Shown here: positions 16,745 to 48,338 of the stretch, piece after piece
Layout of the letters: each line of letters begins with the position of its first letter
Numbering within the stretch: the stretch's first letter is position 1
DNA from: Synechococcus sp. CC9902
GTDB lineage: Bacteria > Cyanobacteriota > Cyanobacteriia > PCC-6307 > Cyanobiaceae
Direction of reading: 5' to 3'
Assembly (NCBI RefSeq): GCF_000012505.1
Contig: NC_007513.1
Coordinates: 1,302,001 to 1,366,000 of the forward strand
Length of the DNA: 64,000 nucleotides
Translations under genes and position numbers: made by a program
Notes under the pieces: generated by a model
Databases searched by the model: none
What the model was told of the DNA's origin: nothing
What the model saw: the letters and a program-made list of their open reading frames with translations, nothing else

Positions 16745-16771
16745 AAATAGCACAACAACGAAATATATTGC

Positions 16772-17424: not shown

Positions 17425-17457
17425 CGATCAAAAAAGGGAGCTGGCTAAGTCACGAAA

Positions 17458-18537: not shown

Positions 18538-18590
18538 AAGAAAAGACAGGTAAAAGTTCGAGAGGAGACGTGAAATTGAAGAGAGAAGAA

Positions 18591-19508: not shown

Positions 19509-19522
19509 GTGACAAAACAGCG

Positions 19523-19539
19523 AGAATGGTTATCATTCT
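19523..19539. promoter_or_regulatory. probable Zur operator between znuA and znuCB
   Basis: A 6+5+6 palindrome, AGAATG-GTTAT-CATTCT, lies 15 bp from the znuA start and about 64 bp from the znuC start. It fits the AT-rich inverted repeats bound by Fur-family repressors, and both neighbours are zinc uptake genes. No other copy was seen near the permease operon. Confidence 0.7.
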
Positions 19540-19602
19540 TTCAGCGCGTCGAATTCCCGCAACCACCTTTCAACCGGCTTTCCAATTGCACCCACAGAGC
19601 TC

Positions 19603-20304
19603 GTGACAATGTCCGCCCTTGCCAACAATGAAGGGTTACGCGCGTCACGCGTCTGCTTTAGCTACGGCGATAGGCAGATCATTGACAACATCACCCTTGA
19701 ACTCAAGCCCGGAACTCTCACGGCACTCGTGGGGCCAAATGGGGCTGGCAAATCAACCCTGCTGCACCTCTTACAAGGGCGATTGCAAAGAGATAGCGGA
19801 CACGTGGAATGCAACAGCAGTATTACCGTCATGCCGCAAAGAGCCTCCATTGATTGGACGTTTCCAATCACCGTCAATGAGATGGTGCGTTTAGGCGGAA
19901 GAAATCACTCCCATCAACCAGGAGGGTTATTAGCGAAACAACTCCTAAGGCGAGTGGGCATGGAAAGGTTGGCTCACAGACGACTCAGTGACTTATCTGG
20001 AGGACAACAACAACGCGTTTTACTAGCAAGAGCCTTGATGCAACAAACCGGAGTCATCCTCCTCGATGAGCCGTGTAGCGCAATCGATCCGCCAACTCGT
20101 GAACATCTCCTGTCCGTCATGCGAGAACAAGCTGATGCAGGGCAAACATTGTTGATCAGCAGCCACGACTGGGGAAGTGCTCTCGATAGCTATGACAAAG
20201 TTCTGGTGCTTGACACAAAATTATTAGCTGATGGAACGCCATCAGAAGTCCGCGAGAAACTAAGTGATATGACATGCATGATGGGGAGCCATTGCTGTGG
20301 ATGA
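19603..20304 (+). CDS. znuC: zinc ABC transporter ATPase
   Basis: The 233-residue ATPase has Walker A GPNGAGKST (residues 44-52), signature LSGGQQQR, Walker B VILLDEP and H-loop SSHD. The GTG at 19603 is used; ATG 19609 is a close alternative. The C-terminus ends with a Cys-rich tail (MTCMMGSHCCG), which may bind metal. The next gene overlaps by 8 nt. Confidence 0.9.
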   Translation: MTMSALANNEGLRASRVCFSYGDRQIIDNITLELKPGTLTALVGPNGAGKSTLLHLLQGRLQRDSGHVECNSSITVMPQRASIDWTFPITVNEMVRLGGRNHSHQPGGLLAKQLLRRVGMERLAHRRLSDLSGGQQQRVLLARALMQQTGVILLDEPCSAIDPPTREHLLSVMREQADAGQTLLISSHDWGSALDSYDKVLVLDTKLLADGTPSEVREKLSDMTCMMGSHCCG

Positions 20305-21073
20305 AACTCAACTTTGGTGGCTTCTTCCACTTATCTTATCTCTATTAATTGGTATAATCTGTCCAGCAACAGGATCATTACTGATCACCCAACGACGCAT
20401 ACTGCTAGCCAATTTAATGGCTCATTCAGTACTGCCAGGTTTAGTAATAGCCTTAGCAATTGGCATTGACCCAACAGTCGGTGGTTTAATCAGTGGACTA
20501 CTTGGTGCCCTAGTAGCAGAACGGCTTAATCAGAGGTTTAAGGGTAGAGAAGAGTCGTCGATGAATACTGTCTTAGCAGGCTTTACGGCTCTTGGAGTAC
20601 TTCTGGTACCACTACTTCAAACCAGAGTTGATCTTGAAACCATTCTATTTGGTGATCTTCTCGCTGCAAGTGGTAGTGACTTAACCCGAACCTTGGTGGC
20701 AACATTTGCACTGGCCTTATTACTAATTACCCGCTATCAAGATTTAGTATTTATTGGTGTAGATCCTGATGGGGCCTATGCAGCCAAGCGACCGGTAACA
20801 CAAATTCGATTCATAGCAATTGTTATAACAGCATTAGTCATCATCAGTGCCATAACTGCAGTAGGAATCATACTTGTCATTGCTTTACTTTGCGCACCAG
20901 TTCTGATGCACATCGAAAAAAGTACCAGCCTTAAACAATTAATGGTGAAGTCAGCTGCCACTGGCTTGGCATTAACAAGTGGGGGAATGATGCTCGCAAT
21001 TGCTGTCGATCTACCTCCAGGGCCAGTGATCGGAAGCCTCTGCATGGTTGCTCTTATTTTAAAAAGATTCTGA
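20297..21073 (+). CDS. znuB: zinc ABC transporter permease
   Basis: This 258-residue ABC-3 family permease has about eight hydrophobic helices. It starts at GTG 20297, overlapping znuC by 8 nt. The segments LLANLMAHSVLPGLVIA and GLISGLLGALVAERL are typical of ZnuB/MntB-type permeases. With the adjacent znuC and divergent znuA it forms a complete importer. Confidence 0.9.
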   Translation: MDETQLWWLLPLILSLLIGIICPATGSLLITQRRILLANLMAHSVLPGLVIALAIGIDPTVGGLISGLLGALVAERLNQRFKGREESSMNTVLAGFTALGVLLVPLLQTRVDLETILFGDLLAASGSDLTRTLVATFALALLLITRYQDLVFIGVDPDGAYAAKRPVTQIRFIAIVITALVIISAITAVGIILVIALLCAPVLMHIEKSTSLKQLMVKSAATGLALTSGGMMLAIAVDLPPGPVIGSLCMVALILKRF

Positions 21074-21215: not shown

Positions 21216-24200
21216 ATGCTGTTTTTGGCAATCGATGGGAAGCGATTAGGCGAAAAATATAAGCAAATCAAAAGTCAAGACCTTGAAGCAATTATACAGG
21301 AAAAAATCTTAAGCTTGAAAACAGTTGGACCCAAAGCGAGAAAGTCAGAGCCACTTAACATGCTATATTATAAATATATAGTTCAAGAAAACTTGGTTCT
21401 GAAAAACAAAGCCATTCATGAGGGATATATTTACATAGGGCCAGCATCTCTTTGCCCTTGCCCAGACATTAATTCTCCTCTCCTAGTCATCACAGGAGAT
21501 GACAACAAATACGCGGATATACTAATCCGAGAGCGCTCACGTACACACTTTCGCACAGATCCTAAGCTTGAAATAATTCATGGAGTTATAGGAAAAGAAG
21601 GAGGCAAAAGAACATGGTATACATTTAATAAAAGCTCGATGAATGGGATTTTTGCAAGCCCCCTTATCAGATGGTGCAATCCCTCCCAACAATTAGAACT
21701 ACTCCGAAGATCCGAAATTCAGTCACGTAAATTAGAAGCCTTCATTCAAGACTCCAGTCTTCTGAAAACGGGAACAAATAATTTTAATATCAGCATTGCT
21801 CAAGGAGACCCATTCCTCACAATAAAACGCTCAGACAAGATAATAAATTTATGTTCAACTATTGATCTAACACTTCATCCATTAGCACTGATCTGGAAGG
21901 ATTCCATTAGTCGATATCTAAAGAAGAAAGGTTTTTGTCAACTTATGGATACACAATTAATTTGGACTAAAGATTGGAAAAACAAATCATCAATCGTTCC
22001 TCTCTCCAATCCAAGTGAAAGCAATAAATACATTGATAAATCAATTCAGAGAATACTATATTTAATCGATTTCGATGAATACAAGAAAAAAAGTCAAGAT
22101 ACTAGCAACTTACTATTGGCGCGGCAAATAGTCTCAGGAGAGATTGAGTTATCAATAAAACACATCATATTGTCTGGCATTCGCAGAAGATTCCTTCAAA
22201 GAGAAAAAGGAATTGCAGTTGTAGACATAACCCGTCCCCCAAATGAAAATCAGGAGATCCAACCAGAGAAATCGGTAGGGTCGAAATTCAATCATCCGAT
22301 TGAACTATCAAAAAAGGTGGTGGGACATATCGATGGATTTAGTGAGTCGCAAAAGTTACATGGTTGGGCCGATGCAAATGAATTCGGTACAGATCCTTCT
22401 TTAATTCAAATATTTTGGATCGAGAGAAATCTAATCATTGGAGAGGCAGAGGCTTCGATCCCAAGGCCAGACCTACACAATATTGTTGCAGGGAAAATCA
22501 ATTGTGGATTCTCAGTGAATCTAAAGTTGTTCACTGATTTTTCGATATCTGAGTGGCTCGATCAACCTGTCACATTGAACATTATTGAAAGTAAAAGTGG
22601 TTTGCCCATAGCAGGATCACCTTGGACAGTTACCGACTCGATGAAGTGCCGTCTAGTCGAAGAGATAACATCTGAGAAAATATCGTCTGATCAATATGAA
22701 CAAATCACTGAGTATTTGTCTAAATCTAGTAATAGCCAGGCAACGAGCAGCATCAGAAAACGATTATTGGAAATCTCAGCACTTCGCTGTTGTGCTGGAT
22801 ATTGGAACAATCTTCCCATTGATTTAGCCATACAAAACCATACAAAAAATGTGGCCCTAGACTATGGAAGTAATAGTGAATCAGCAACAAGATTAGAGCT
22901 TATCTTAAAAGCTTTCACATATATAATTGCGTTTATAGATCAAAGTAAGATTCATGGCAATCACTCAGTTCATAACACTCAAGAGAGCCTTGAAGAATGT
23001 CTATTCAACATTAATTTGTTACTAAAGGAGCGAAGCTTCATTGGGCTTCAAAATTGGGAAAAAGAGATCTGGCGATCCTCATGCATCCCAATATCAGAGA
23101 TTTTAATTGCTACAATCTTTCTTCAAGATATTCCAAACCGATTAGGCAAAGCAGGCCCATTAGTTGATACAATCGCATCCATTGCGGCAGGAGTCTATGC
23201 AGACCAAACAACTTCATATTATTTGCGTTCAATTATTGAATGCAATCAGAGTAGTTCTTATAGTCAAGAGTTTATAGATCTTGCCCATAAACGAGGAGAT
23301 CGTTTCGGCTATCTAGCAGCAAATTATGCCAATAGCATTGTAGAAAATAAACCAGTTAATGATCTATTTTATTATGCAGCTGCAATCGATTTTTCAGATA
23401 AATCAGCTGAGATTCTTTGGTTACTGACCCAAAAACTTGGACAGACAATACCGCAGCATATAGAACAATATCCCCGTCAATCAGCTCCCCGTCATTGGGT
23501 AGACAGGCTGGGCTTTATTGCAAATAATTCAACACAAAGAACAATCGAAGCCATGCTTAATTTAAAATTTAGTCGTAAAAATATCATTTCACATCATGAG
23601 AAGATGATCTCTATCAAAGGATCTTTGGCTCAATTAATTTGGGAACCAATAATTAAAGCAGAGCAATCAACTACAAGCACAAAACCCAAAGAACTTAAGC
23701 GGTGGCTTATTGTTGGAGAAGAGAGCTTAAAACAATGTTGGTTATATAGAGTGGAGCAGAAAAAAAGACAGCTTGAAGGAATCGGCTGTGAAGTCAGATG
23801 CATGAATCACTTTGATCTTAATTTTTGGGAATGTAGTCATGATATTTTGTGGGCAGATGCCCTCGTTGTGTGCAGACTAGCCGCAACATATCCTGTTTTA
23901 AGGGCAATTTCATTCGCAAAGAATAGTGGTGTAAAGGTGTTTGCTGAGATTGATGACCTAATCTTCACACCTGAATATCCAGCAGCATATGAATCCTATG
24001 GTGGATCAATCTCCAATGATCAGTACAAGAATTTATGCATTGACTACCCCCTCAGGGTCGGCGTCTTAAATGCAGCAGACGAGGTAATTGTCTCCACATC
24101 TGTGCTCTCAGAATATTGTCGTCAATATTTGAGCGATTCCCAAAAACCCATCCACATCCTCAATAATCTTCCCCTTGATTCACTCATAACGGTCTCCAAC

Positions 24201-26042
24201 TCACTAAAAAATATTAGAAATTCCAGGAAAAATAATGAAGAAATTCAGATCGTTATCACGTCTGGAACTCTCTCACATAAACAAATTCTAAATGAGACGA
24301 TATTTCCGGTGCTTGCTAATATCTTAGCAAGTCACAGCAAAGTCAAATTACTAGTAATAGGCCATATTGATATTGGATCTGAACTTAAGAAGTTCGGCCA
24401 ACGCATCCAATCAATCCCATTTTCCGATTATTCAACGTACCTAGATCTTCTTACAACGAGTGATATTGCATTAGTTCCCCTCGAGGTACATCCTACGACC
24501 CACGGCAAAAGTGCCATTAAGTGGATGGAAGCCAGTTTATGTGGTGTGACCTGCATTTGTTCACCAGTTCGTGCGTACACCGATGTGATCAGCCATGGCG
24601 AAACAGGTCTGATCGCCGAAACAGCAGAGGAATGGCATCAAGCCATTATCCAATTGATGGAAGACCCATCAAAAATGCGCCGTATTGCAGAAAAGGCTCG
24701 AAACCACGCCAACAATTTGTTTGATAGTGAAATTGGGAGAGAGTTCTGGAGAAATCAAATATCGAAATCAATTTCAACGACGACGACGACTAATCGACCT
24801 TGTAAAAAAATTTTGGTGATGAATGTATTCTTTGCACACCAGAGTATTGGCGGAGCTACACGCGTCGCTCAAGACTACGTTCAAACAATGTTGACGGATG
24901 ATCAAACAAATTACGAGATAACAGTTTTATGCACCGAGTACAATAACTGGCAGTCTGACCCAGCCAATCTACAGAATTTAAAGGAAATCGAGCAAGAGCC
25001 TTTCCTCGCAGATTTACAGCATATTGATTATCAAAACTATCAACAAGAAGTACAAGTTGATGTCTCTCACTGGCGTGGAGCCAGAATTATTCGTCTTTCA
25101 TTGCCACCCAAAGTATGGTCTGAATATCATGATCCACTAGTAGAAGCCTTCTGTGAGGACCTATTCATAAGTGAATCATTCGATTTAGTTCAATGTCACT
25201 GCTGTCAACTTCTGACCGCCGCCCCATTGGTTGTAGCCCGGCGCCACAAAATCCCCTACGAAATCGTGATGCATGATGCTTGGTGGATGAGTCATCAACA
25301 GTTTTTGGTATCAGCGGCTGGACGACTGATCGATCCTGCAGATCCTCTCGGACATTTTGATCAGCAACCAAGCCCAGATGAAGCCCAACAAGCACTTCAA
25401 CGTCGATCCGATCTCTATCAACTTTTAGAGGGTGCTCAACGAAGAATTGCAGTTTCAGAAGCCTTCAAAAAGATTTGTGAGAGTGCAGGCATTAAAGATG
25501 TTGATGTTCAAGTTAATACAGCCACAGACATGGGGATACCAGCTGGAAGCAAAAAGTTGCCCTCTAAAGCTTCCATTAATAACTATAATTTATGCCATAT
25601 TGGTGGCATGAGCTTACACAAAGGTTACCAGTTACTGAGGCAGGCCGTTCATTACTTGCCGCAATCACTTCCCATACAATTCACCATTATAGATCATAGA
25701 TTATCATCCTCTAAAAATAATTATGAATCAATCTGGAATGGCTATCATGTTAATTTCATTGCCCCAATTCCAATGGATAAAATGCCAGAGTTCTACAGTG
25801 AACAGGATGTATTAATCGCACCATCCATCTGGCCAGAAAGCTTTGGACTCGTAACACGAGAAGCCCTTAGCGCTGGACTCTGGGTGATTGCTAGTGATGC
25901 AGGCGCATTGGCAGAGCCTATTTTGAACACACAGGAAAAAAATGGAACCGTCATCCAGCCAAATAATTTAGAAGATCTAGTAAAAGCACTAAGAGATCTA
26001 CCAAACTGTCTTGACACAACCAAACCGAATGTCAAAAACTGA
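21216..26042 (+). CDS. giant multi-domain glycosyltransferase
   Basis: The 1608-residue protein has several modules. Residues 1-330 are of unknown type. A domain near 375-480 (GWADANEFG... then INCGFSVNL) resembles a module often seen in bacterial polysaccharide enzymes. Residues 540-790 look helical. Two GT-B/GT4-like glycosyltransferases follow: about 826-1180 (FAEIDDL, then KWMEASLCGV) and about 1200-1605 (IGGATRVAQDY, GGMSLHKGYQLL, PESFGLVTREALSAG with the E-x7-E motif). The gene is clearly more AT-rich than the core genes. It probably assembles a surface glycan. A short ORF at 21185 ends at once, so ATG 21216 is preferred. Confidence 0.7.
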   Translation: MLFLAIDGKRLGEKYKQIKSQDLEAIIQEKILSLKTVGPKARKSEPLNMLYYKYIVQENLVLKNKAIHEGYIYIGPASLCPCPDINSPLLVITGDDNKYADILIRERSRTHFRTDPKLEIIHGVIGKEGGKRTWYTFNKSSMNGIFASPLIRWCNPSQQLELLRRSEIQSRKLEAFIQDSSLLKTGTNNFNISIAQGDPFLTIKRSDKIINLCSTIDLTLHPLALIWKDSISRYLKKKGFCQLMDTQLIWTKDWKNKSSIVPLSNPSESNKYIDKSIQRILYLIDFDEYKKKSQDTSNLLLARQIVSGEIELSIKHIILSGIRRRFLQREKGIAVVDITRPPNENQEIQPEKSVGSKFNHPIELSKKVVGHIDGFSESQKLHGWADANEFGTDPSLIQIFWIERNLIIGEAEASIPRPDLHNIVAGKINCGFSVNLKLFTDFSISEWLDQPVTLNIIESKSGLPIAGSPWTVTDSMKCRLVEEITSEKISSDQYEQITEYLSKSSNSQATSSIRKRLLEISALRCCAGYWNNLPIDLAIQNHTKNVALDYGSNSESATRLELILKAFTYIIAFIDQSKIHGNHSVHNTQESLEECLFNINLLLKERSFIGLQNWEKEIWRSSCIPISEILIATIFLQDIPNRLGKAGPLVDTIASIAAGVYADQTTSYYLRSIIECNQSSSYSQEFIDLAHKRGDRFGYLAANYANSIVENKPVNDLFYYAAAIDFSDKSAEILWLLTQKLGQTIPQHIEQYPRQSAPRHWVDRLGFIANNSTQRTIEAMLNLKFSRKNIISHHEKMISIKGSLAQLIWEPIIKAEQSTTSTKPKELKRWLIVGEESLKQCWLYRVEQKKRQLEGIGCEVRCMNHFDLNFWECSHDILWADALVVCRLAATYPVLRAISFAKNSGVKVFAEIDDLIFTPEYPAAYESYGGSISNDQYKNLCIDYPLRVGVLNAADEVIVSTSVLSEYCRQYLSDSQKPIHILNNLPLDSLITVSNSLKNIRNSRKNNEEIQIVITSGTLSHKQILNETIFPVLANILASHSKVKLLVIGHIDIGSELKKFGQRIQSIPFSDYSTYLDLLTTSDIALVPLEVHPTTHGKSAIKWMEASLCGVTCICSPVRAYTDVISHGETGLIAETAEEWHQAIIQLMEDPSKMRRIAEKARNHANNLFDSEIGREFWRNQISKSISTTTTTNRPCKKILVMNVFFAHQSIGGATRVAQDYVQTMLTDDQTNYEITVLCTEYNNWQSDPANLQNLKEIEQEPFLADLQHIDYQNYQQEVQVDVSHWRGARIIRLSLPPKVWSEYHDPLVEAFCEDLFISESFDLVQCHCCQLLTAAPLVVARRHKIPYEIVMHDAWWMSHQQFLVSAAGRLIDPADPLGHFDQQPSPDEAQQALQRRSDLYQLLEGAQRRIAVSEAFKKICESAGIKDVDVQVNTATDMGIPAGSKKLPSKASINNYNLCHIGGMSLHKGYQLLRQAVHYLPQSLPIQFTIIDHRLSSSKNNYESIWNGYHVNFIAPIPMDKMPEFYSEQDVLIAPSIWPESFGLVTREALSAGLWVIASDAGALAEPILNTQEKNGTVIQPNNLEDLVKALRDLPNCLDTTKPNVKN

Positions 26043-26868
26043 TAAAATGAATTGGAGATTTTGGCGAAAAAATATGCATCCTTCACTCGGATTCTTAATT
26101 TGTGGCCTTGAACATAGTGGAACTACAATGGTTTCTGATCTATTTCGAGAACATCCTGCAGCAGACTCAGGCTTTGAATGTGGTGTACTCCTATGCAACA
26201 CCCCAAGCGAATTTTTAACATTTGAACCTTTTTGTCGGCACATGTATGTGGGATGGGGAATAGACCATAACGACCTTTCCTATGCCTGCTCAGCACATTC
26301 CTTTCAAGATTTTTACCGTCGATTATTCGAACGTTCTGCAAGCATTAAAGATAAATCCCCCAGGATTATTTTTGATAAAACACCGCGCTATATCACGCGA
26401 TTAAGACAAGTTCAAATACGTTTCAACCAACCAGCAATCGCTGTAATTAAAGATCCAAGATCACTTGCTCTTTCCGATTTCAAACGCTCGGAACGTTCTT
26501 TAGATGAGATTGATTCGTGGTATGACGAATGGAAAAATCCCAAAATAGACTATATGCGTTCAGCTTATGAAGGCTATCTCTATGCTTGGAAAAATAAAAA
26601 CTGCCATGTTGTTCGTCTCGAAGACATCTGCTTTGACGCTAAAAATACCGTAAACAAAATGTTTGACTTTGTTGGCCTTAAATTTAAAAATGAATACTTT
26701 AATCTTAGCAATAAACGGTTTAATAATACGATTGAATGGTCTCGACAGTTTGGATCATCCATTAATGTAGGATCTTGCATGGCATTTATGGATGCACTTC
26801 CTACACGAATCCAAGAACGAGTGTGTTCTGACTTCTCAGAGTTCGACAAATGGTTTTATCCTTTTTAA
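26029..26868 (+). CDS. sulfotransferase family protein
   Basis: From ATG 26029 the protein has 279 residues. GLEHSGTTMVSDLF matches the 5'-phosphosulfate loop of PAPS-dependent sulfotransferases, and KDPRSLALSDFKRS matches the 3'-phosphate loop. It overlaps the end of the glycosyltransferase gene, so both probably act on the same glycan, adding sulfate. ATG 26047 and TTG 26011 are alternative starts. AT-rich like its neighbour. Confidence 0.75.
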   Translation: MSKTDKMNWRFWRKNMHPSLGFLICGLEHSGTTMVSDLFREHPAADSGFECGVLLCNTPSEFLTFEPFCRHMYVGWGIDHNDLSYACSAHSFQDFYRRLFERSASIKDKSPRIIFDKTPRYITRLRQVQIRFNQPAIAVIKDPRSLALSDFKRSERSLDEIDSWYDEWKNPKIDYMRSAYEGYLYAWKNKNCHVVRLEDICFDAKNTVNKMFDFVGLKFKNEYFNLSNKRFNNTIEWSRQFGSSINVGSCMAFMDALPTRIQERVCSDFSEFDKWFYPF

Positions 26869-38009: not shown

Positions 38010-39425
38010 ATGGCCCTTTTGCCCCTGTTAAAAAAACGGCTCGGCAGGAGCTTGTTTTTGCCGGCTCATGGAAGAGGACAGGCGCTACCGAAGGTCTTCA
38101 AACGTCTTTTAAGGCAAAGGGCTGGAGCATGGGACTTACCGGAGTTGGCGGAGATTGGCGGGCCACTCGAACTCCATGGTGCAGTTGGAGAAAGTCAACG
38201 GGAATCAGCAGCCGCCATAGGGGCTGATCACTGCTGGTACGGCGTGAATGGGGCCACAGGATTACTTCAGGCAGCCCTGTTGGCAATCGCTCAGCCCGGC
38301 GATGCCGTTCTCATGCCTCGCAACGTTCATAGAAGCCTGATTCAAGCCTGTGTACTCGGAGACATCAAACCAATTCTTTATAACGTTCCGTACAGCAATA
38401 AATATGGGCATGCGACTCAACCAGACTGTGATTGGATGCAGTGCATTCTTAACGAGTTACCCACAGATAAGAAACGAATCAAAGCTGCAGTTCTCATTCA
38501 CCCCACCTATCAAGGCTACGCCGAGGATCCAAGCAAAACAATTCAACTTTTGCAATCACAAAATCTTGTTGTACTCGTAGACGAAGCCCATGGAAGCTAT
38601 TTTGCAGCAAAGGTGGATCCAGATCTACCGGCTTCAGCACTACATTGTGGGGCAGATCTAGTCGTCCATTCACTGCATAAATCAGCGGCAGGAATCGCGC
38701 AAACGGCGGTCCTGTGGCAGAAGGGACAGCGTGTAGATCCAGAACAAATCAATCGATGCCTAGGCTGGCTGCAAACAACAAGCCCAAGCTCTCTACTTTT
38801 AGCGTCGTGTGAGTCAGCAATACAAGAATGGACGAACCCAAAGGGCATAAACGAGTTAAAAAGACGAATCAACGAGGGGCGCTTACTTGCGGAGAAGCTA
38901 CGTCAATCTGGGATGCCATTGATCACCAATCAAGATCCACTACGACTCATCCTCCATACTGGTTCCATCGGACTGAATGGCTTAGAAGCTGACGAACAAT
39001 TCATGCAAAGGGGATTGATTGCTGAACTTCCAGAGCCCAGCACATTAACGTTTTGCCTAGGTATGGCGAAACATGAAGGCCTTTATCGACACCTCAAAAA
39101 TGCGTGGAAAGACATTGAGTCAACAACATTAGATAAAACACCTCAACCAACATTTTCAAATCCACCCTTACCATTAGTCCGGGAACCTGAGGTGAAACTC
39201 AGCACTGCATGGACAGCAGAAAATAGAATAGTTTCAATTGAGAATGCTGAAGGGGAAATTGCCAGCGAGCTGGTTTGTCCTTACCCGCCGGGGATACCAC
39301 TTCTCATACCAGGAGAGAAAATTGATCATGCAAGGATGAGATGGTTAATAGAACAAAGCATTGATTGGAAGAATGCAGTGCCTAACGAAATAAAGGTAAT
39401 GTTGAATGCTACAGGCAATTCATAA
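38010..39425 (+). CDS. Orn/Lys/Arg decarboxylase family PLP enzyme
   Basis: The 471-residue protein has the PLP motif HSLHKSAAGIAQTAVL with the Schiff-base Lys, plus HPTYQGYAED and VDEAHGSYF. It belongs to the fold-type I decarboxylase group, but is much shorter than enteric LdcC/SpeF. A role in polyamine formation is likely but the substrate is not known. It precedes the AT-rich MNIO cluster by about 150 bp. Confidence 0.8.
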   Translation: MALLPLLKKRLGRSLFLPAHGRGQALPKVFKRLLRQRAGAWDLPELAEIGGPLELHGAVGESQRESAAAIGADHCWYGVNGATGLLQAALLAIAQPGDAVLMPRNVHRSLIQACVLGDIKPILYNVPYSNKYGHATQPDCDWMQCILNELPTDKKRIKAAVLIHPTYQGYAEDPSKTIQLLQSQNLVVLVDEAHGSYFAAKVDPDLPASALHCGADLVVHSLHKSAAGIAQTAVLWQKGQRVDPEQINRCLGWLQTTSPSSLLLASCESAIQEWTNPKGINELKRRINEGRLLAEKLRQSGMPLITNQDPLRLILHTGSIGLNGLEADEQFMQRGLIAELPEPSTLTFCLGMAKHEGLYRHLKNAWKDIESTTLDKTPQPTFSNPPLPLVREPEVKLSTAWTAENRIVSIENAEGEIASELVCPYPPGIPLLIPGEKIDHARMRWLIEQSIDWKNAVPNEIKVMLNATGNS

Positions 39426-39571: not shown

Positions 39572-40459
39572 ATGAATTCATCCACAACATTGGCCCCACA
39601 ACGTCTATCAACCGGGCTTAAAAGAATGTCTGCCGGACTGAACCTGTGCCATGAGAATTCCCAAGAACTATTTGATCAAAGGCCAAATTTAGATTTTATT
39701 CAAATACATCCTGAGCACCTTCTGCAAGAGCAAGGCGGAACCTACAGGGAACACCTAGATATACTAAGACATCATTATCAAGTTATTCTTCATGGATTTG
39801 GCCTATCGATAGGTTCATCAGGCCCGCTTGATAAAGAATATCTGTTACTGATTAAAAACCTACTAAAAGAACATCCTGAAGCAGTCTTCTCAGATCACTT
39901 TTCTTGGAGCTCGCTATCAAAGCATCACTTCCACGACTTGATACCGCTTATTCAATCAGATGAAACAGTGCAATACATGGTCGAAAGGATCGATGAAGCA
40001 CAAGAAGCCATAGGGGCTCCAATCCTTTTGGAAAACATAAGCAGCTATATGCGCTACAAAGAATCAGAAATGTCTGAAATACAGTTCATCAATGAAATAA
40101 CAAAAAGGTCAGGATGCTTTGTACTGCTTGATGTAAATAACATTTGGGCCAATGCGATGAATTTCGGAGAAAATCCATGGGAAACGCTTAGTCAGATCAA
40201 TGCTGACAGTATTAAAGGGTATCATCTAGCAGGATGTACGGAGGAACAAAAAGGAAATGGGAAAGTCTATATCGATTATCATGGCGAGGCCGTGCACGAC
40301 GAAGTCTGGGATCTATACAAACAATGCTTAGAAAAATATGGGGCATGGCCCACACTTTTAGAATGGGAAAATAATATTCCACCGCTAACACGCACACTTC
40401 AAGAGGTTGAAAAGATTAGCGATTGCTTCAAAACACTCCAGGAAGGTGCAAATTCATGA
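39572..40459 (+). CDS. DUF692 family multinuclear non-heme iron oxidase (MNIO)
   Basis: The 295-residue protein matches DUF692 across its length: HGFGLSIGSSGPLD (H74), FSDHFSW (H109), ILLENISSYM (E154), LLDVNNIWANAMNFGENP (D187, N189), GYHLAGC (H218), DYHGEAVHDEVW and TLLEWENNIPPL (E264). These ligands place two or three irons, as in MbnB and TglH, which modify cysteines of precursor peptides. The next gene is the usual partner protein. AT-rich, unlike flanking genes. Confidence 0.92.
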   Translation: MNSSTTLAPQRLSTGLKRMSAGLNLCHENSQELFDQRPNLDFIQIHPEHLLQEQGGTYREHLDILRHHYQVILHGFGLSIGSSGPLDKEYLLLIKNLLKEHPEAVFSDHFSWSSLSKHHFHDLIPLIQSDETVQYMVERIDEAQEAIGAPILLENISSYMRYKESEMSEIQFINEITKRSGCFVLLDVNNIWANAMNFGENPWETLSQINADSIKGYHLAGCTEEQKGNGKVYIDYHGEAVHDEVWDLYKQCLEKYGAWPTLLEWENNIPPLTRTLQEVEKISDCFKTLQEGANS

Positions 40460-41307
40460 GATCACCACAAATCGTTCGCCTACAACAACAGTTCTTGGCA
40501 AGTTTGCATGATAAACCAAGGCAATGGCTACTCGATCAAATTGAACCCGCACCAGGCTTTAAAGACAGTGAAGAGGTCCTTGAGATTTATCTTCACCGTG
40601 CAATGGCACGAACAGTTGAACCACTGAAAGGTATCTACCAGTCCTTACAATGGGTACTTGGAGAGGACACATTCAACCAATTTGTACAGCAGTTTTATAC
40701 CGACTCCCTAGGAGAACCATTAAATGCACAAGCCCTCTCAACTGAGTTTGCTTCCTATGTTGGAAACATCGGAGAAGAACAGAGAGAACACCTAACAAGC
40801 ATCAATCGGGACTCGTCAAAAGACGATTACTCGACATCAACCATGGTCGAAGCAGCAGCAATGCTCGACTGGCGGATTCACTGGGTGACGCTAGTCGCCA
40901 ATAAAAGCAAAGCATCAGCTGAAGAGCTCATAAGAAACTTGAACCATCGAAATTCAATATGGTTAAGGCCTCGCCTTAATCGCGCCTCAAGGCTTTGTTA
41001 TTCCGGAGTCGACCTAAAGGAACTTCATCGACTAGCAGCAGAAAAAACAAAGGGCAGCTCCCCAACAAAATGTTCCGAAGGTGTGAGCACGTTTTTGATC
41101 TATGCAAATCAAAATCACAATGCAATTGTTAGGCCCTTAGACACTCAAGAGGCCAGGTTGCTCAATCATTGCGATGGAACACATACTATCGCATCACTAA
41201 TTCATGAAGGTAAGTTCTTCGATCAATCAAAGAGTCAAACATTGAAGTTGATCAAACAACTGATCGACGAAGGTGTAATTTGCGACCTTGAAGACAAGCT
41301 GATATGA
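40456..41307 (+). CDS. DUF2063 MNIO partner protein with PqqD/RRE-like C-terminus
   Basis: From ATG 40456 the protein has 283 residues and overlaps the MNIO gene by 4 nt. The N-terminal DUF2063 part shows LQQQFLASLHD, YLHRAMARTVEPLKGIYQ and MLDWRIHWV. The last 70 residues (RPLDTQEARLLNHCDGTHTI, then LIKQLIDEGVI) resemble a winged-helix/PqqD-type peptide-recognition domain. Partners of this kind bring the precursor peptide to the MNIO enzyme. Confidence 0.85.
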   Translation: MRSPQIVRLQQQFLASLHDKPRQWLLDQIEPAPGFKDSEEVLEIYLHRAMARTVEPLKGIYQSLQWVLGEDTFNQFVQQFYTDSLGEPLNAQALSTEFASYVGNIGEEQREHLTSINRDSSKDDYSTSTMVEAAAMLDWRIHWVTLVANKSKASAEELIRNLNHRNSIWLRPRLNRASRLCYSGVDLKELHRLAAEKTKGSSPTKCSEGVSTFLIYANQNHNAIVRPLDTQEARLLNHCDGTHTIASLIHEGKFFDQSKSQTLKLIKQLIDEGVICDLEDKLI

Positions 41308-41310
41308 ACA

Positions 41311-41436
41311 ATGTGCAAATATAATATTGCATTCGGAACATTAGTAAAGACCACAGAATTCAAACAAGGCCCGAAATATAGTCGCAAAATCTTTAAAGCC
41401 TTAGACGCCTATCCCATTAATTACTACTTTAGATAG
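41311..41436 (+). CDS. possible small peptide (41 aa) after the MNIO partner
   Basis: ATG 41311 lies in frame 3 nt after the partner gene's stop. The frame ends at TAG 41434-41436, 8 bp before the MFS start. The peptide is basic with one Cys near its N-terminus (MCKYN) and an aromatic C-terminus (YPINYYFR). It sits where a precursor might lie, but has no Cys-rich core, no signal peptide and no clear ribosome binding site. It may also be a former extension of the partner protein. Confidence 0.35.
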   Translation: MCKYNIAFGTLVKTTEFKQGPKYSRKIFKALDAYPINYYFR

Positions 41437-41444
41437 TTCAACAA

Positions 41445-42836
41445 ATGACCAACATAAATAAGTGGTGGCTATTAGTTCTCGTAGCCCTACCAACTCTCTC
41501 GACATGCCTAAGTACAAATGTGGTGATGTCTGCACTCGTGTCGATTGGGCAAACCTTTCCAGATGTTGCAGGCATTGGTGAATGGACTCTATTGATCTAT
41601 TCGATGACTGCAGCAAGCTTATCGATTTTGGCTGGAGTTCTCGGAGATAGATATGGTTTAAGAAAAATGTATACCATTGGTTTAATCATATTTCTACTTG
41701 GAGCATTAGGAGCATCATTCGCCACCACAGGAGAATCTTTATTGGTGTTTAGGAGTCTTTCAGGGATTGGCTCGGCAATCCTGGCTCCAGTTGCCTTAGC
41801 TTTCTTAAATAGAATTTTTAGTGGCGTAGAGAAGCCAATTGCGTTCGGGTATTGGGCAGCAACAATAACGATCGGAAATGTAATAGGACCATTTCTTGGT
41901 GGGTTGATTCAAAGTATATCGAGCTGGCGATTAACATTTCCAATTGCCGCTTTACCGGCATTAATTGCTTTGGCATTCGCAGGAATTCTTCCTGCCTATA
42001 AGCCTGGTAATACCAGGAAAAATATCGACATAAAAGGAATTGCATATCTCTCAGCATTGCCAGCAGTCATACTATTTACCCTTGCAATGGCGGGAAGATT
42101 AAATCCATCAAGCATCATAATATTCTTGTCGCTAATCGGAATCGGCTTTTTTACTTTCTGGAAACACCTGAATAAGACAGAGAATCCCGTCATTGATCTA
42201 CAAATATTAGAAAATTACAAATGGTGGAGACCATCAATAATTCAACTGATTATCCGTTGCCTATTCATGGCAATGCTGATTCTTTTGACAGGTTATTTCC
42301 ATTCCATTCAAGGACTAAGCGAATTAAACTCTTCGTCGGCACTATTCCCATTTTTGATATCAGTGGGAGTGATGGCATTTACAAGCGGCTACATCTGCAA
42401 ATCGATCGGGATTCGAAAATTAATGACAACAATGTTCTCTCTGGGGTTAGCAGGGGCTGTCATTCTGCTTTCAGTGCAACCGGATGGCTTTAGATTAATT
42501 GATTGGATAGCCATATGCTTTATTGGCCTACTTGCTGGAAGCACATCACAATTAAGTCGATTATCTATGGCAAATTTTGGAGTCAATGATTCCATGAAAG
42601 GGGCTTCGATTAACACTTTAATTATCAACGTTGGCATATCGATCGGGGCTGCCTACCCAACCTTAATTCGCTCGATCGTCTCAAAACAAGCCCATCTTTC
42701 AAACATCATTTCCAAAGAAAATTTATTACACATTATGCACGAAGAAGTGATGGTACTAATATTACTTTTCTGCATTGGCATATGGCAAGCAGGAAAGCTT
42801 CAGGATTTAACCGAACCAAAGACCCTAAGTACTTAA
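41445..42836 (+). CDS. MFS transporter, DHA2-like
   Basis: The 463-residue protein has about 14 hydrophobic helices. The MFS motif A-like GVLGDRYGLRKMY is in the loop after helix 2, and RSLSGIGSAILAPVAL fits motif C-type segments of DHA2 drug exporters. It directly follows the MNIO pair, so export of the modified product, or import of the metal-bound form, is possible. AT-rich. Confidence 0.8.
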   Translation: MTNINKWWLLVLVALPTLSTCLSTNVVMSALVSIGQTFPDVAGIGEWTLLIYSMTAASLSILAGVLGDRYGLRKMYTIGLIIFLLGALGASFATTGESLLVFRSLSGIGSAILAPVALAFLNRIFSGVEKPIAFGYWAATITIGNVIGPFLGGLIQSISSWRLTFPIAALPALIALAFAGILPAYKPGNTRKNIDIKGIAYLSALPAVILFTLAMAGRLNPSSIIIFLSLIGIGFFTFWKHLNKTENPVIDLQILENYKWWRPSIIQLIIRCLFMAMLILLTGYFHSIQGLSELNSSSALFPFLISVGVMAFTSGYICKSIGIRKLMTTMFSLGLAGAVILLSVQPDGFRLIDWIAICFIGLLAGSTSQLSRLSMANFGVNDSMKGASINTLIINVGISIGAAYPTLIRSIVSKQAHLSNIISKENLLHIMHEEVMVLILLFCIGIWQAGKLQDLTEPKTLST

Positions 42837-42949
42837 TACCAAAACAATGAAACTTTTAATCAGGCGAGCAATTGAAGCAAATTAAAGCATCATTAACTTT
42901 AGAGTACTGGCGCCTTGGCTAGCTAGAGTGACTGAAAGGGATTAAATCA

Positions 42950-45900
42950 ATGGCAGTCAATTATATTATCGGCAGTTTATTTCCAAAAAAAACTGATGGC
43001 AGTCCCAACATCAAATACTCTTCAAGCTTGGTAGCTAAAGGGACAGGATCAAACATCAGGCTTAGCAATAAAAGAAGACGAAATCAATCCTATAAAAACA
43101 AATTAGTTGCCAATATTGATATCACAAGTGATCCAATCAATATCAAAGGATCTTCGAATTTCGCCAAAGAATGGTTGATACCGCAAATCACAAATAAAAC
43201 AAAGAGTGATGGATCAATCAATTCCTCATCAATTTTTGGAGCAGTACAAAAAAAAGTCGTTAGCAAGTGGACAAAGCAGCCAAAAAATCAGTCGATGAAA
43301 AGTCTGATCATGCTCGGTTATATTGGACCTGGCTCGAGTGAAAGTGCTACAAATAATTCAACGTGGAATTCAGTCGGCTCTAAAAAAGATAAATATTATC
43401 AAGCAATACAGGACTTGGGCAACTATGATCCAAGAAAAATGTGGGCTAATTATAATAACAATTCTGTAGATGCTGATGTTATCAAGTCTGACTACGACGA
43501 AAGAAATCTCCTGCAAAATCTCAATGCAGAAAAATTGCAACTTGAGGAAGGTACTAATCCGAATCTCTGGTATCCAGCAATGCTTTATAGCTACGGCTTG
43601 CGTGGAGAAGGAACAAGTTATCCCGGACCAGTTTTAATTACGCAACCTGGCGATCAGATCCGACTCAATTTCAACAACGACATACGAATTGGAGAGTTAA
43701 ATAATTCACAAATTCAGCAAGCAACTCTTGTCCCAAATAGCACCTATGGAAATGGTGCAAGTGATGGACTTGGAGGAACGACATCTCTTAATTATCACCT
43801 CCATGGATCTCACACCAATCCCACTGGATTTGGGGACAACGTAGTTTCGAGATTTACGACAGGGCAGAAATGGACAACCATTATTGATTTACCAGAAGAT
43901 CATGGACAGGGTTCTTATTGGTATCACCCGCACTACCACCCCTCTGTTAATCAACAAGTCTACGGGGGTGCATCAGGTTTCATGCAAGTAGGGGATCCAT
44001 TAAGCAAGATACCTGCTTTTAAGGATATTCCACGAAATCTAGCTGTTCTAAAAATGCTAGATATTGGAATCGATACTGATACTGGATCATTACAACTAGC
44101 GGCCTACGACAATTACGGAGGTCCGCTTACCAATGCCATGACAATGGTGACGGTGAATGGTGAATTTCAGCCAGAAGCCGATGCAGGGAAAGGGGGATGG
44201 CAATCAATTACTTTCAGCAATCAAGCTAATCAAGCTTTCTACAATGCTAGCCTTATTCATCAGGAAACTGGAGAAAGACTCCCTTTATATATCTATGGCG
44301 AAGATGGACATCAATTCCCAAAAATACGAGCGGCTAAGGGGACACTAACAACCACAGACGATCCAGAAACATCTCTTCCTACGGAGTATAAGCAGCAGGA
44401 GAATGTCATCTCGCTGGCACCTGGCAAACGGGTTGATGTTCTGGCTTATCTTCCAGGGGGAACAACTGAGATCGTCTCTAACTATACATTTTCGGATGAT
44501 TCGGGCAATATATTTAAAACTGAAAATATGGGTGATTATCCAGACCTAAGCACAACAGCCAAGGATCTTAAGAGCGTCACGAATGGTCAAAGTGCGGGCC
44601 CAATGGCAACTTTTGTTGTTAACAAAAAGACAAAACTGCCATCACTTGGAAAACTCAATCGTGATATAAGAATTGCCAACAAAGGGATTGAAGTTCAAAA
44701 GATCAAACCATCAACAAAGCCTGAGGATTATGATACAAATGCTGTTCCAAGCATCAATTTATTTGATTCGAAAAAATCAAAATGGAAACCTCTACGAAAA
44801 AGAGAATTTAATTGGGCCAAAGGAGTGCTTGTTGGTGACAAGGATGAGTGGGATCTAGCTACGCAAGAACGAGTATCTGATTACAATAGCTCAGCAGACG
44901 TTAACAATCAGTTTGAACAATACGATGCTCTTTCAAAAATTACAAGCGGCTCTAACAACTGGTTTGGATACAATAATCCATTTCTAATTAATGATCATGT
45001 TTTTCCAAATGGTTCAATAACAATCGCCCAACTTGGGACAATGGAAGAATGGAACCTCCGCAATTGGAGTGTCAATGGAGGGACTAAATATATTGGGCAT
45101 CCTTTTCATATTCATATCAACGACTATCAGACAAAAAATAGCGACACTGAGCTTGACAAAAAAAGGAGCCTAGAAGATGTTACGATGCTTAACTCTTCAG
45201 GGTATAAGTATTACGATACCGATTTAGAAAAGAATGTAGAGCTAAAACCACTTCAAGGAAGGTTTCATGAAATCAGTGCTGCATTAGACAAAAATAAGGT
45301 CGATTCAATTGGCACCTGGGGCGCCAATGATCAAACTGTTAGAATGCTATTCCAAGACTATCTTGGGACATATGTTTTTCATTGCCACATACTTCCTCAT
45401 GAAGATGCTGGAATGATGCAGGTTATTACGATTGTCGAAAATACCGATAGTAGCTGGATTACAAACGCAGAATCTGACAACTATACAAATAAGGATGGGA
45501 ATATTACCTTACGTCAAGCACAGGACTTTAGTGAGCGCACACTAAAACCTGAGAATTCAAAATTTAAAATTGATAGGATGCAATCTGGTGATTTAAACTA
45601 CGATTTCACGCAAGATATAGTTTTAAGCCGTAGAGGCTCCAACTCTTCATCGGGTCATTTAGAAATTTATGATGGCGCTGCTGCATTAAAGAATAAAACG
45701 ACACTCTTGAGTAAAATTAAACCCTACAAATCAAAATATGCTCCCTGGGCGTTTATTGAAGACTTCACGGGTGATGGCAACCGCGATCTAGTTACGGCTG
45801 GGTTTTCTAAATCAAAGGCCGGCAACATCAATCTTCAGGACCTTCAAATTAAAGCCTGGACTTCCTCAAAGACTGCAAAACAATGGAAAAATGTTTTTGA

Positions 45901-47329
45901 CTTCAATCCGTTTGCCGATATCAGTACAATTATCAACGTTGATGATCAAGAATTAAAGCCAGTAGACGGATTAGATATTAATCAGGTTGGTGTTGCAATG
46001 GCTGACATGAATTTGGATAACTTCCAAGATATAGCGGTCAGCTATGCCGTAGACAGTGGATTGAGAGTTGTTGTTTTGGATGGTGCAGCAATGGCATTAA
46101 ACTATCAAACAGGAACCATGGAGGGTGGATATTTTCCCAATGATAATGTGCTTGCTGATGCTGTTATTCAAGACAAGAGCCTTCAAGATCTAAGCAAAGT
46201 TGTTTTAACTTCTGGCTTTAGTAGTTACGCGCAATCAGCATTGGAAGACCTAATTATCACAACCCATTCTGAATCCAACAAAACAAAGCAGGTCTTCACT
46301 ACTCAATTGCAAGCTGGTCACTTTATTGCCACTTCAGAGATGGAGTCGTCCATGGATGGAAGCACCCATAGTGGTCATGGAGCCATGGTCATGAAGGACG
46401 ATCGCATTGAGAATCTTCGTCACAACTCAATGCCTCTCTCCATTACTGAAACTGATCTTTATAGCGAATCAGGGCTTGCTACAACACCAGTCATTGCAGG
46501 TGTATTTGGGACCACCGGATTAATAACTGATGATCAATTAGTGATTGCACAAGGAGTCAGTAATGGAAAATACAGCTATGGAAATTCAGCTAGCAGCAAG
46601 GATTTATTCAATTCATCTCAACAGCTAGCTTTTAATCTTAATCAAATCAATAAGACAAATAGAACTGATTTAATTGGTGCCATAGACTCAGAGTTGTCAA
46701 CTACATTCAAAGCAAAAAGCACTCAAAAAAGAATCAATATGGCAAATTTAACGTATCAAGTTTATGCCAATCAAACCATGGCACCTGGCGATCTTGCGAC
46801 TGCCGCCGGAGCCATTCTTGGCCAAGGGCAAACAGCACAGCAGCTTGCTGAAGACCTCATCAATAATCCAAAATCTTCTAAATTAATTACAGCTAGCTAT
46901 GGCGGTTCACTGAGCACATTGCCGATCGCTGATGTTATTACCGGAGCGACAAAGAACCTTTATGGGAGAACCGCTACGAAGGGAGAAATACGCAAATGGA
47001 GTAATGCTGTGAAGAGCGGACTTGATCAAAGTTTGATTCCTCTATCTATTTTACAGAACACAGGCGATGACGACATTTATCGCACAGCATTGATGTCTTC
47101 AATAGCGCAATGGAATCAAGTTCAATGGAGCACAAATGCCAACCAGATGGGATCCTTTGGTCAAGGTCTTCAAAGCGATGAAGCTCGCTTTCAAAGCATC
47201 ACTTCACCCCTTGATGCAATTGGTAGTCTCAGCAATTGGAGGGCTGTAATGGAAGAGATGACGTCTTATACCCAGACGGCCCTCAACACCTTGATAGGCA
47301 CAGATATCTCAAAGTCGGGCTTCTTCTAA
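42950..47329 (+). CDS. giant multicopper oxidase with VCBS/FG-GAP-like and DUF4214-like regions
   Basis: The 1459-residue protein has a full copper oxidase core with all four motifs: HLHG (H283-G286), HPHYH (H326-H330), HPFHIH (H717-H722) and HCHILPHEDAGM (H811-M822). Residues from about 880 to 1030 have calcium-loop repeats (DFTGDGNRDLV, DMNLDNFQDIAV) like VCBS/FG-GAP. About 1240-1380 resemble DUF4214 (NLYGRTATKGE). No N-terminal signal peptide is seen, so secretion may use a type I system. It probably oxidises Cu(I), Mn or phenols at the surface. Confidence 0.85.
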   Translation: MAVNYIIGSLFPKKTDGSPNIKYSSSLVAKGTGSNIRLSNKRRRNQSYKNKLVANIDITSDPINIKGSSNFAKEWLIPQITNKTKSDGSINSSSIFGAVQKKVVSKWTKQPKNQSMKSLIMLGYIGPGSSESATNNSTWNSVGSKKDKYYQAIQDLGNYDPRKMWANYNNNSVDADVIKSDYDERNLLQNLNAEKLQLEEGTNPNLWYPAMLYSYGLRGEGTSYPGPVLITQPGDQIRLNFNNDIRIGELNNSQIQQATLVPNSTYGNGASDGLGGTTSLNYHLHGSHTNPTGFGDNVVSRFTTGQKWTTIIDLPEDHGQGSYWYHPHYHPSVNQQVYGGASGFMQVGDPLSKIPAFKDIPRNLAVLKMLDIGIDTDTGSLQLAAYDNYGGPLTNAMTMVTVNGEFQPEADAGKGGWQSITFSNQANQAFYNASLIHQETGERLPLYIYGEDGHQFPKIRAAKGTLTTTDDPETSLPTEYKQQENVISLAPGKRVDVLAYLPGGTTEIVSNYTFSDDSGNIFKTENMGDYPDLSTTAKDLKSVTNGQSAGPMATFVVNKKTKLPSLGKLNRDIRIANKGIEVQKIKPSTKPEDYDTNAVPSINLFDSKKSKWKPLRKREFNWAKGVLVGDKDEWDLATQERVSDYNSSADVNNQFEQYDALSKITSGSNNWFGYNNPFLINDHVFPNGSITIAQLGTMEEWNLRNWSVNGGTKYIGHPFHIHINDYQTKNSDTELDKKRSLEDVTMLNSSGYKYYDTDLEKNVELKPLQGRFHEISAALDKNKVDSIGTWGANDQTVRMLFQDYLGTYVFHCHILPHEDAGMMQVITIVENTDSSWITNAESDNYTNKDGNITLRQAQDFSERTLKPENSKFKIDRMQSGDLNYDFTQDIVLSRRGSNSSSGHLEIYDGAAALKNKTTLLSKIKPYKSKYAPWAFIEDFTGDGNRDLVTAGFSKSKAGNINLQDLQIKAWTSSKTAKQWKNVFDFNPFADISTIINVDDQELKPVDGLDINQVGVAMADMNLDNFQDIAVSYAVDSGLRVVVLDGAAMALNYQTGTMEGGYFPNDNVLADAVIQDKSLQDLSKVVLTSGFSSYAQSALEDLIITTHSESNKTKQVFTTQLQAGHFIATSEMESSMDGSTHSGHGAMVMKDDRIENLRHNSMPLSITETDLYSESGLATTPVIAGVFGTTGLITDDQLVIAQGVSNGKYSYGNSASSKDLFNSSQQLAFNLNQINKTNRTDLIGAIDSELSTTFKAKSTQKRINMANLTYQVYANQTMAPGDLATAAGAILGQGQTAQQLAEDLINNPKSSKLITASYGGSLSTLPIADVITGATKNLYGRTATKGEIRKWSNAVKSGLDQSLIPLSILQNTGDDDIYRTALMSSIAQWNQVQWSTNANQMGSFGQGLQSDEARFQSITSPLDAIGSLSNWRAVMEEMTSYTQTALNTLIGTDISKSGFF

Positions 47330-47432: not shown

Positions 47433-48338
47433 GTGATCATCGAGGTCTATCCATCAGTTGATCAACCACGATCGACAGAGTCCTCACGCAAACGACTGTT
47501 AAGCGGATTAGCCGTTGGTGGTTTTGGCCTCGTTGTTGTCTGCCTTGGTGGGTGGTGGTTCACCGCAGCCGTCGGGATTCTGGTGCATCTCGGCCTGTTG
47601 GAATTTTTCCGCATGGCCCAATTCAAGGGGATGCGTCCTGCTACAAAAACCACCCTGGTGGCCTGCCAACTGCTGTTATTCAGCACCCAATGGGCAGCTG
47701 TATCTGGAGGATTGCATGCAGAGCTCTCCTCAGCCGTCTTGCCGATATCTGGAGCAGCCATTTGTGCATGGTTGCTTCTGCAGCCAGTAACTGGCTCTAT
47801 CGCCGATGTTGCAGCGTCAATCTTTGGTTTGTTTTATCTGGGATTTTTACCGAGTCACTGGCTATCGCTTCGGAATCTCACGCTGGTGGAACTCACGCCA
47901 GGCACCTCAGAACTCTGCACAAGTGGACTTGCAATCACCTTGTCGGCATGTCTGATGATTGTGTGCAGCGACATCGGCTCCTGGGCCTTTGGACGTCGCT
48001 GGGGGAGACGTCCGTTATCACCAATCTCACCTGGGAAAACAGTGGAAGGTGCCCTAGGCGGATGTCTTTGTGCCATGGCCATGGGGGAGGTTTGCGCCCT
48101 TGTGATGGGGTGGCCTTATTTCGGTTTACCCGGACTCCTCCTTGGCGCCCTCGTCGCCCTCATCGCCATGGTGGGGGACCTCACCGAATCCATGATGAAA
48201 CGCGACGCTGGCGTCAAAGATTCCGGTGATGTTTTGCCCGGCCACGGTGGAATCCTCGATCGAATCGACAGTTATTTGTTCACCCCAGCCGTGGTGTATT
48301 ACGTCGTGGCGCTGATTCAGCCTCTACTGGTTCGATGA
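47433..48338 (+). CDS. cdsA: phosphatidate cytidylyltransferase (CDP-DAG synthase)
   Basis: The 301-residue integral membrane protein has about eight helices and the CdsA signature near its C-terminus: GDLTESMMKRDAGVKDSGDVLPGHGGILDRIDS. It also has SPGKTVEGALGG. It converts phosphatidate and CTP to CDP-diacylglycerol for phospholipid synthesis. A GTG start at 47433 is used. Confidence 0.92.
   Translation: MIIEVYPSVDQPRSTESSRKRLLSGLAVGGFGLVVVCLGGWWFTAAVGILVHLGLLEFFRMAQFKGMRPATKTTLVACQLLLFSTQWAAVSGGLHAELSSAVLPISGAAICAWLLLQPVTGSIADVAASIFGLFYLGFLPSHWLSLRNLTLVELTPGTSELCTSGLAITLSACLMIVCSDIGSWAFGRRWGRRPLSPISPGKTVEGALGGCLCAMAMGEVCALVMGWPYFGLPGLLLGALVALIAMVGDLTESMMKRDAGVKDSGDVLPGHGGILDRIDSYLFTPAVVYYVVALIQPLLVR

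Follow-up and report, generated by a model that had tools for sequence, protein, structure and literature searches.

A 64,000-nucleotide stretch of the Synechococcus sp. CC9902 genome (contig NC_007513.1, positions 1,302,001 to 1,366,000; G000:C1:1302001-1366000 in our numbering), referred to here as the window, lies within a 2.23-Mb single-contig genome. Between positions 39572 and 47329 it carries four plus-strand genes, which encode a DUF692 enzyme of the multinuclear nonheme iron-dependent oxidative enzyme (MNIO) family, a DUF2063 partner protein, an exporter of the major facilitator superfamily (MFS), and a multicopper oxidase (MCO) of 1459 residues. MNIOs are iron enzymes known for modifying small copper-binding peptides. 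A preliminary description of this DNA had proposed that the cluster is a copper-linked system for a ribosomally synthesized and posttranslationally modified peptide (RiPP) and had connected the oxidase to the MNIO pair by inference. The four open reading frames (ORFs) are placed and oriented as that description had it, and their assignments agree with Pfam matches. We found that MNIOs of one distinct clade recur in Cyanobacteria as a set with their DUF2063 partner and the long MCO, linked or unlinked, without a detectable neighboring precursor gene.

The window MNIO matched PF05114 with an E value of 9.5e-91 (304 bits; cut-off, 25), which places it in the MNIO superfamily. It keeps all eight residues that we take to be iron ligands from the structures of MbnB and TglH (H74, H109, E154, D187, H218, D235, H237, and E264), and none of these columns varies among the 38 MNIOs that remain in the alignment when the sequences from genomes G004, G005, and G283 are left out. 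Its best NCBIfam match was BufB, at 279.3 bits and under the equivalog cut-off of 310; a bufferin-type MNIO from the same taxonomic family scored 379.9 bits. Scores against HvfB (231.7 bits; cut-off, 360), the methanobactin enzyme MbnB (39.5 bits; equivalog cut-off, 325), and ApyH (60 bits; cut-off, 400) were also too low for assignment. A tree of 41 MNIO rows, among which G283 is a long branch, placed the window MNIO in a distinct clade of 11 sequences with support of 100/100 and a stem of 2.1 changes per column. The clade closest to it consists of 18 cyanobacterial bufferin-type MNIOs, although this join has support of just 84/45 and long branches meet there.

Members of this clade and the long MCO occur together. 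Of the 34 genomes of the genus, 4 have an MNIO; in a sample of 400 genomes of the family, 20 have a PF05114 match, eight an MNIO ORF of the clade (G000, G004, G005, G033, G086, G100, G264, and G270), and 14 a long MCO. Seven genomes have both (Fisher P = 9e-11, uncorrected for relatedness). Wherever a clade MNIO retains all presumed iron ligands, an MCO with all presumed copper ligands is also encoded (8/8 genomes from two families: G000, G033, G086, G100, G264, G270, G662, and G680), and no ligand-complete clade MNIO without an MCO was found among the sampled genomes. The last two genomes came from a class-wide sample of 388 and represent another cyanobacterial family. Their MNIO, 53% identical to that of the window, is transcribed divergently from an MCO gene of 1624 or 1631 codons (~45% identical), and an MFS gene (~40% identical) follows the MNIO gene at a short distance. 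Across the 148 genomes of their order, a long MCO is present solely in G662 and G680. Any MNIO match at all was seen in 21 of these genomes, with scores of ~400 bits for G662 and G680 and at most 242 bits for the 19 others, which lack such an MCO.

The preliminary description suggested looking for the same gene order in relatives. A core of MNIO, partner, and MCO does recur in that order in G004 and G100, whereas the arrangement varies elsewhere: MNIO-partner-MFS-MCO in G000, MNIO-partner-flavin amine oxidase-MFS-MCO in G033, and MCO-MNIO-partner-flavin oxidase in G086. In G264 and G270 the MCO is unlinked, more than 300 kb from the nearest MNIO, and G264 has two clade MNIO loci (G264a and G264b) for the one MCO found. 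On contig C68 of G100, the MNIO-partner-MCO region is present twice in inverted orientation (L065 and L066), with the same proteins encoded; this is either an assembly artifact or a true inverted duplication, and we counted the region once.

Cases in which one member of the set has decayed run in a single direction. Both G004 and G005 have the MNIO substitutions D187N and H237R, joined by H109Y in G004 and by E264D and N190S in G005. The two ORFs (L058:12297-13178 and L059:11196-12077) are open and stand beside an open partner gene; judged from the lost presumed ligands, they probably encode decaying enzymes or pseudo-enzymes. The ratio of nonsynonymous to synonymous substitution rates (dN/dS, by the simple Nei-Gojobori method) was 0.19 for this pair versus 0.03 (G270-G264a) and 0.08 (G264b-G086) for the two closest intact pairs; the other MNIO pairs with finite values each include G004 or G005 and have dS above 1, the remainder being saturated. 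G004 nevertheless encodes a ligand-complete MCO, and G005, with its ligand-depleted MNIO, has only an MCO remnant. In G149, whose genome is 74% complete, an intact MCO adjoins remnants of an MNIO (84 residues) and of a flavin oxidase. Six further genomes have the MCO without an MNIO match (G018, G169, G235, G279, G299, and G313), with completeness of 68% for G018, 68% for G299, and 89% for G279. According to the preliminary description, the proposed link would fail if relatives kept the MNIO without the oxidase and the MFS. MNIOs without the MFS do exist (G004, G086, and G100), but the only MNIO without an intact oxidase is the ligand-depleted one of G005. The asymmetry, an intact MCO with a lost or depleted MNIO but no ligand-complete MNIO without an MCO in these samples, fits a dependence of the MNIO on the MCO. 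Together, the recurrence, the unlinked co-occurrence, and the decay pattern support a link between the MNIO pair and the MCO that is more than chance neighborhood, as the preliminary description had inferred.

The genomic site bears on a simpler explanation, that a flexible genomic island between the decarboxylase-family gene and cdsA merely carries the genes along, with no functional link. The cluster is AT-rich, as had been noted (40.8% GC versus 52.4% in the rest of the window), and in four genus members (G000, G033, G004, and G005) the unit occupies the same site, from the decarboxylase-family gene, with or without an RlpA-like gene, to cdsA. Among 29 cdsA loci found, we inspected the neighborhoods of four of the 30 MNIO-less genus members (G001, G002, G006, and G029), and in each the flanks are directly adjacent, leaving an empty site; CdsA of G002 is 97% identical. 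Both the low GC content and the single insertion site would be expected of island passengers. Such mere co-location is nevertheless the least probable of the explanations considered, as the co-occurrence holds when the genes are far apart (G264 and G270) and also in other genera and a second family, where the sites are unrelated. The site also qualifies the idea of an acquired unit. Presence at one site and absence from it among genus members agree with gain, but recent acquisition by the window genome alone was ruled out by the identical site in four genus members; from the shared and the empty sites, the cluster looks like an old unit that has been gained and lost over time. Viral relatives were not confirmed, and the 351 plasmid records retrieved were all below 60% identity, the 15 listed being at or below 40.5%. 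An RlpA-like gene lies between the decarboxylase gene and the MNIO gene or cdsA in G033, G004, and G001.

The oxidase itself is a bona fide MCO by its domains, PF07731 (Cu-oxidase_2; 48.2 bits; cut-off, 20.4) and PF07732 (Cu-oxidase_3; 24.1 bits; cut-off, 21), and by the presumed copper ligands, of which 12 of 12 are present in the window protein and in 15/15 aligned MCOs. Its copper domains and ligands resemble those of the Thermus laccase 2xu9, phenoxazinone synthase 3gyr, and CueO. Unlike those enzymes, it is 1459 residues long, with a long N-terminal part, FG-GAP repeats that are weak and under the Pfam cut-off, and a conserved C-terminal GFF tail. The best partial NCBIfam match was the O-aminophenol oxidase PhsA (61.8 bits, far under the cut-off of 950), and scores against CueO and CopA were below their cut-offs. 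Its single Cys, C812, is the type-1 copper ligand, and we saw no N-terminal signal peptide. The GFF tail is present in 15 of the 16 MCOs with a visible C terminus, the exception being G313. The fetched loci contained 509 distinct ORFs of 200 or more codons; 16 of them end in FF, and 15 of these encode long MCOs. An AlphaFold model of the C-terminal half had a predicted local distance difference test (pLDDT) score of 30, too poor for use, and was left out of fold searches.

In a midpoint-rooted MCO tree, from which the partial MCO of G279 was left out, all MNIO-linked MCOs fall in an 11-member clade whose sole member without MNIO and DUF2063 matches is that of G313; four MCOs without an MNIO (G018, G169, G235, and G299) form a separate clade with support of 100/100. 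We compared alignment columns between nine rows with an MNIO (G149, with its remnant, counted as positive) and five without, setting G004 aside. T289 and L1098 alone separated the two groups, too few residues to weigh as marks of MNIO dependence. Beside the MCO in G169, G235, and G299 are genes for a GMC oxidoreductase and a 121- to 126-residue protein, and look-alikes of both were recognized by eye at the partial G279 MCO. This second type of long-MCO cluster, without an MNIO (L087 in G169, L088 in G235, L086 in G299, and L089 in G279), comprises MFS, MCO, GMC oxidoreductase, and the small protein, although no MFS was seen in the partial L089 locus. The small protein had no Pfam match in the one copy scanned. 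Two Nif11 genes lie near long MCOs: a Nif11-leader RiPP precursor gene (TIGR03798, over cut-off) at L060:5517-5831 in G018, ~0.26 kb from the 3' end of the MNIO-less MCO gene, and another at L083:1247-1471 in G264, ~3.7 kb from the MCO gene.

The partner protein matched PF09836 (DUF2063) at 45.6 bits (cut-off, 27.2), as expected of a PME-type 1 partner. Its gene was listed with a TTG start at 40423, which is too early; homologs share an ATG at 40456, and this start gives the 4-nucleotide ATGA overlap with the MNIO stop codon that had been described. The PqqD- or RiPP recognition element (RRE)-like C terminus noted earlier has weak sequence support, a PKMT_2nd winged-helix match with an E value of 0.0077 that is under the cut-off, and it does not set the cluster apart, because DUF2063 plus RRE is the usual architecture of PME-type 1 partners as described in PMC12452194. 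NCBIfam HvfC matched five of nine partner homologs weakly (E values up to 0.1) and did not match the window partner. Searches of the PDB with the partner sequence and with a partner profile gave no match, and an AlphaFold model (pLDDT, 41) was too poor for fold searches and was left out. The partner of G662 and G680, 27 to 29% identical to that of the window, is encoded at a locus distant from the MNIO. Genome-wide searches of the window genome returned one MNIO and one DUF2063 protein.

Bufferin operons (BufABC) combine an MNIO with a DUF2063-RRE partner and a DUF2282 or Buf2 precursor (PMC12452194), and captophorin or oxazolin (HvfABC) systems, which make thiooxazole metallophores (PMC12668002), share the pair of MNIO and PME1 genes. 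We applied two tests to 11 clade loci and 18 cyanobacterial bufferin-type control loci: an ORF with a signal peptide and Cys within 600 bp upstream of the MNIO gene and an NDC motif within 1.5 kb on either strand. The upstream ORF was found at 16/18 bufferin-type loci versus 0/11 clade loci, and the motif at 17/18 versus 1/11 (G264b). The two control loci missed by the first test (G086buf and G730) carry the motif, so 18/18 were positive by at least one test. Two more NDC matches lie elsewhere in the 19-kb G264a locus; as they and the G264b match fall outside any upstream signal-peptide/Cys ORF, we read them as chance. The EGKCG motif was absent from all 11 clade loci as fetched, the remaining genome not being searched. 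At a bufferin-type MNIO of G761 (L160), two tandem DUF2282-like precursor ORFs were recognized upstream by eye.

Other places for a precursor were examined as well. All four bufferin-type precursors that were run against Pfam proved to be DUF2282 proteins; DUF2282 had no match at an E value of 0.001 in the whole window genome, beside the MNIO or elsewhere, in a genome-wide search that did not include the BufA2/Buf2 class. The gaps between the window cluster genes hold no plus-strand ORF with at least two Cys codons. The longest ORF there, 41 codons at 41311-41436, was rejected as a precursor: it has one Cys, no PHROGs match, and no counterpart by eye in other gaps. No precursor gene was found in the gaps of nine clade loci, by a reading whose reach ends at peptides that are Cys-free, shorter than 20 to 30 residues, or encoded at a distance. 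On the gap reading and the two tests, we rejected a bufferin operon with an overlooked precursor. The RiPP label for this cluster is thus unproven, since no precursor was found, DUF2282 had no match in the genome, and the MNIO scored below the BufB, HvfB, and MbnB cut-offs.

A precursor encoded elsewhere is our main alternative. The MNIO pair would then belong to a bufferin-like copper-handling RiPP pathway whose short product, exported by the MFS or the Sec system, buffers copper or supplies it to the MCO. This reading, the one nearest to the preliminary description, is a real possibility, which we rank a close second. Among NCBIfam families, the MNIO matches BufB best, and any MCO needs copper. 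PME-type 1 partners accompany Sec-signal Cys precursors, and precursor genes away from the MNIO are known (both PMC12452194). In G086, a bufferin operon with an MNIO of its own exists apart from the clade MNIO. Nevertheless, the clade differs from bufferin systems in lacking a precursor beside the MNIO, in its long separate stem, and in having an MCO instead, and the window locus lacks a detected Lys-Cys repeat precursor of the captophorin type. The upstream-ORF contrast, the absence of EGKCG from the fetched clade loci, the low scores against BufB, HvfB, and MbnB, and the lack of a DUF2282 match (in a genome not scanned as a whole for other Cys peptides) also speak against it. The only entry point for copper in the set is the MCO itself.

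The third member of the window cluster is less regular. The MFS protein matched MFS_1 (125 bits; cut-off, 33.4), and its best NCBIfam match, a DHA2/EmrB-like family, reached 109 bits (cut-off, 230). A homolog occurs at the MNIO locus in G000, G033, G662, and G680, but the loci fetched for G004, G005, G086, and G100 and the second G264 locus showed none, and the G264 and G270 loci have a different MFS protein (26% identical). The MFS is a looser member of the set. A flavin amine oxidase (PF01593) gene directly follows the partner gene in G033, G086, and G264. Among the 400 family genomes, proteins at least 61% identical to the G033 query were found only in these genomes (61 to 63% in G086 and G264), all of which have an MNIO; the five other matches at threshold, 32 to 34% identical, are in one other genus.

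Such companions raise the possibility of small-molecule or peptide tailoring, with the MNIO, flavin amine oxidase, MFS, and MCO acting one after another on a metabolite or a very small peptide and the MCO carrying out a last, extracellular oxidation, as in phenoxazinone synthase. The restriction of close flavin oxidase homologs to MNIO genomes, the remnants of this oxidase beside the G149 MCO, the MFS genes in several clusters, the partial PhsA match, and the GMC oxidoreductase and another MFS in MNIO-less MCO clusters agree with it. However, the flavin oxidase has no match in the window genome at an E value of 1e-60 and is missing from most MNIO loci, and the partner protein points to a peptide or protein substrate. 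We consider tailoring improbable.

The cluster and its borders are listed in Table 1. Several other features of the window were noted. An RlpA-like lytic transglycolase gene (DPBB_1) lies at 5752-6240 on the plus strand, ~33 kb from the cluster, and a gene for a DUF411 protein (PF04214) at 7400-7948 on the minus strand, ~32 kb away; the DUF411 family is presumably copper related. Metal transport genes at 13733-21073 encode an ArsP_1 permease, a DUF1980_C protein, ZnuA, a probable ABC ATPase (by eye), and an ABC-3 permease. A further low-GC block (38 to 40%) at 21216-26868 encodes a 1608-residue protein with glycosyltransferase domains and a sulfotransferase.

Table 1. Genes of the cluster and its flanks, with positions in the window
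Feature	Position	Strand	Remarks
MNIO (DUF692, MbnB_TglH_ChrH family), 295 aa	39572..40459	+	PF05114; eight presumed iron ligands kept
MNIO partner, PME-type 1 (DUF2063 + C-terminal region with weak winged-helix/RRE similarity)	40456..41307	+	
MFS exporter, DHA2/EmrB-like	41445..42836	+	MFS_1 match; ~40% identity to MFS at G662/G680 loci
MCO, 1459 aa, laccase-like copper domains ~205-835	42950..47329	+	Cu-oxidase_2 + Cu-oxidase_3
Left flank: Orn/Lys/Arg decarboxylase-family gene (ODC)	38010..39425	+	Conserved site border, outside system
Right flank: CdsA-like cytidylyltransferase	47433..48338	+	Conserved site border, outside system

We tentatively favor an explanation in which the MCO, or something that it requires, undergoes oxidative modification by the MNIO pair, whose job would then be tied to the oxidase and not to an adjacent short peptide. 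The MNIO of this clade may have switched to a new target. With the partner as its guide, the enzyme would oxidatively modify the MCO polypeptide in the cytoplasm, ahead of export. The conserved GFF tail is one candidate for the modified site, given that C-terminal Asp, Asn, or Cys and also Phe are among the targets of known MNIOs (PMC12452194, Table 1); TglHI, ApyHI, MovX, and PbsCD in the same table exemplify chemistry beyond internal Cys, on short precursors. The mature MCO would then serve as a phenol or metal oxidase outside the cell, while the MFS and, in some genomes, the flavin amine oxidase could handle associated small molecules. A stronger version, in which the MNIO pair has left RiPP precursors behind and now oxidizes a full-size cuproenzyme, the MCO itself being the substrate, perhaps at its GFF tail, strikes us as doubtful.

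Several observations weigh against a role on the MCO. Its sole Cys is a copper ligand, yet Cys is the residue changed by the bufferin MNIOs that this MNIO clade most closely resembles. Nor does the MCO have a signal peptide, as the Sec-signal precursors that accompany PME-type 1 partners do (PMC12452194). MCOs with and without an MNIO differ consistently at only the two residues named above, and the GFF tail is equally conserved in MCOs without an MNIO. An intact MCO has been kept with a depleted MNIO (G004) or a lost one (G149, in an incomplete genome), and the two clade MNIOs of G264 accompany a single MCO.

Searches of a literature collection found no paper pairing "MNIO" with "multicopper oxidase" or "multinuclear nonheme iron" with "laccase." "DUF692" and "multicopper oxidase" appeared together solely in a Caulobacter copper-response study, according to its listing, and a term search of PMC3744912 gave neither multicopper oxidase nor DUF692. 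Whether MNIOs act on full-size proteins as well as on peptides is a question raised in PMC12452194, and this clade, which in the loci seen is constantly accompanied only by its partner and one large oxidase, offers a compact case for it. If the MCO is the substrate, the set would amount to a system dedicated to protein maturation, with its origin in bufferin-like enzymes, and MNIO chemistry would be tied to cuproenzyme maturation in picocyanobacteria.

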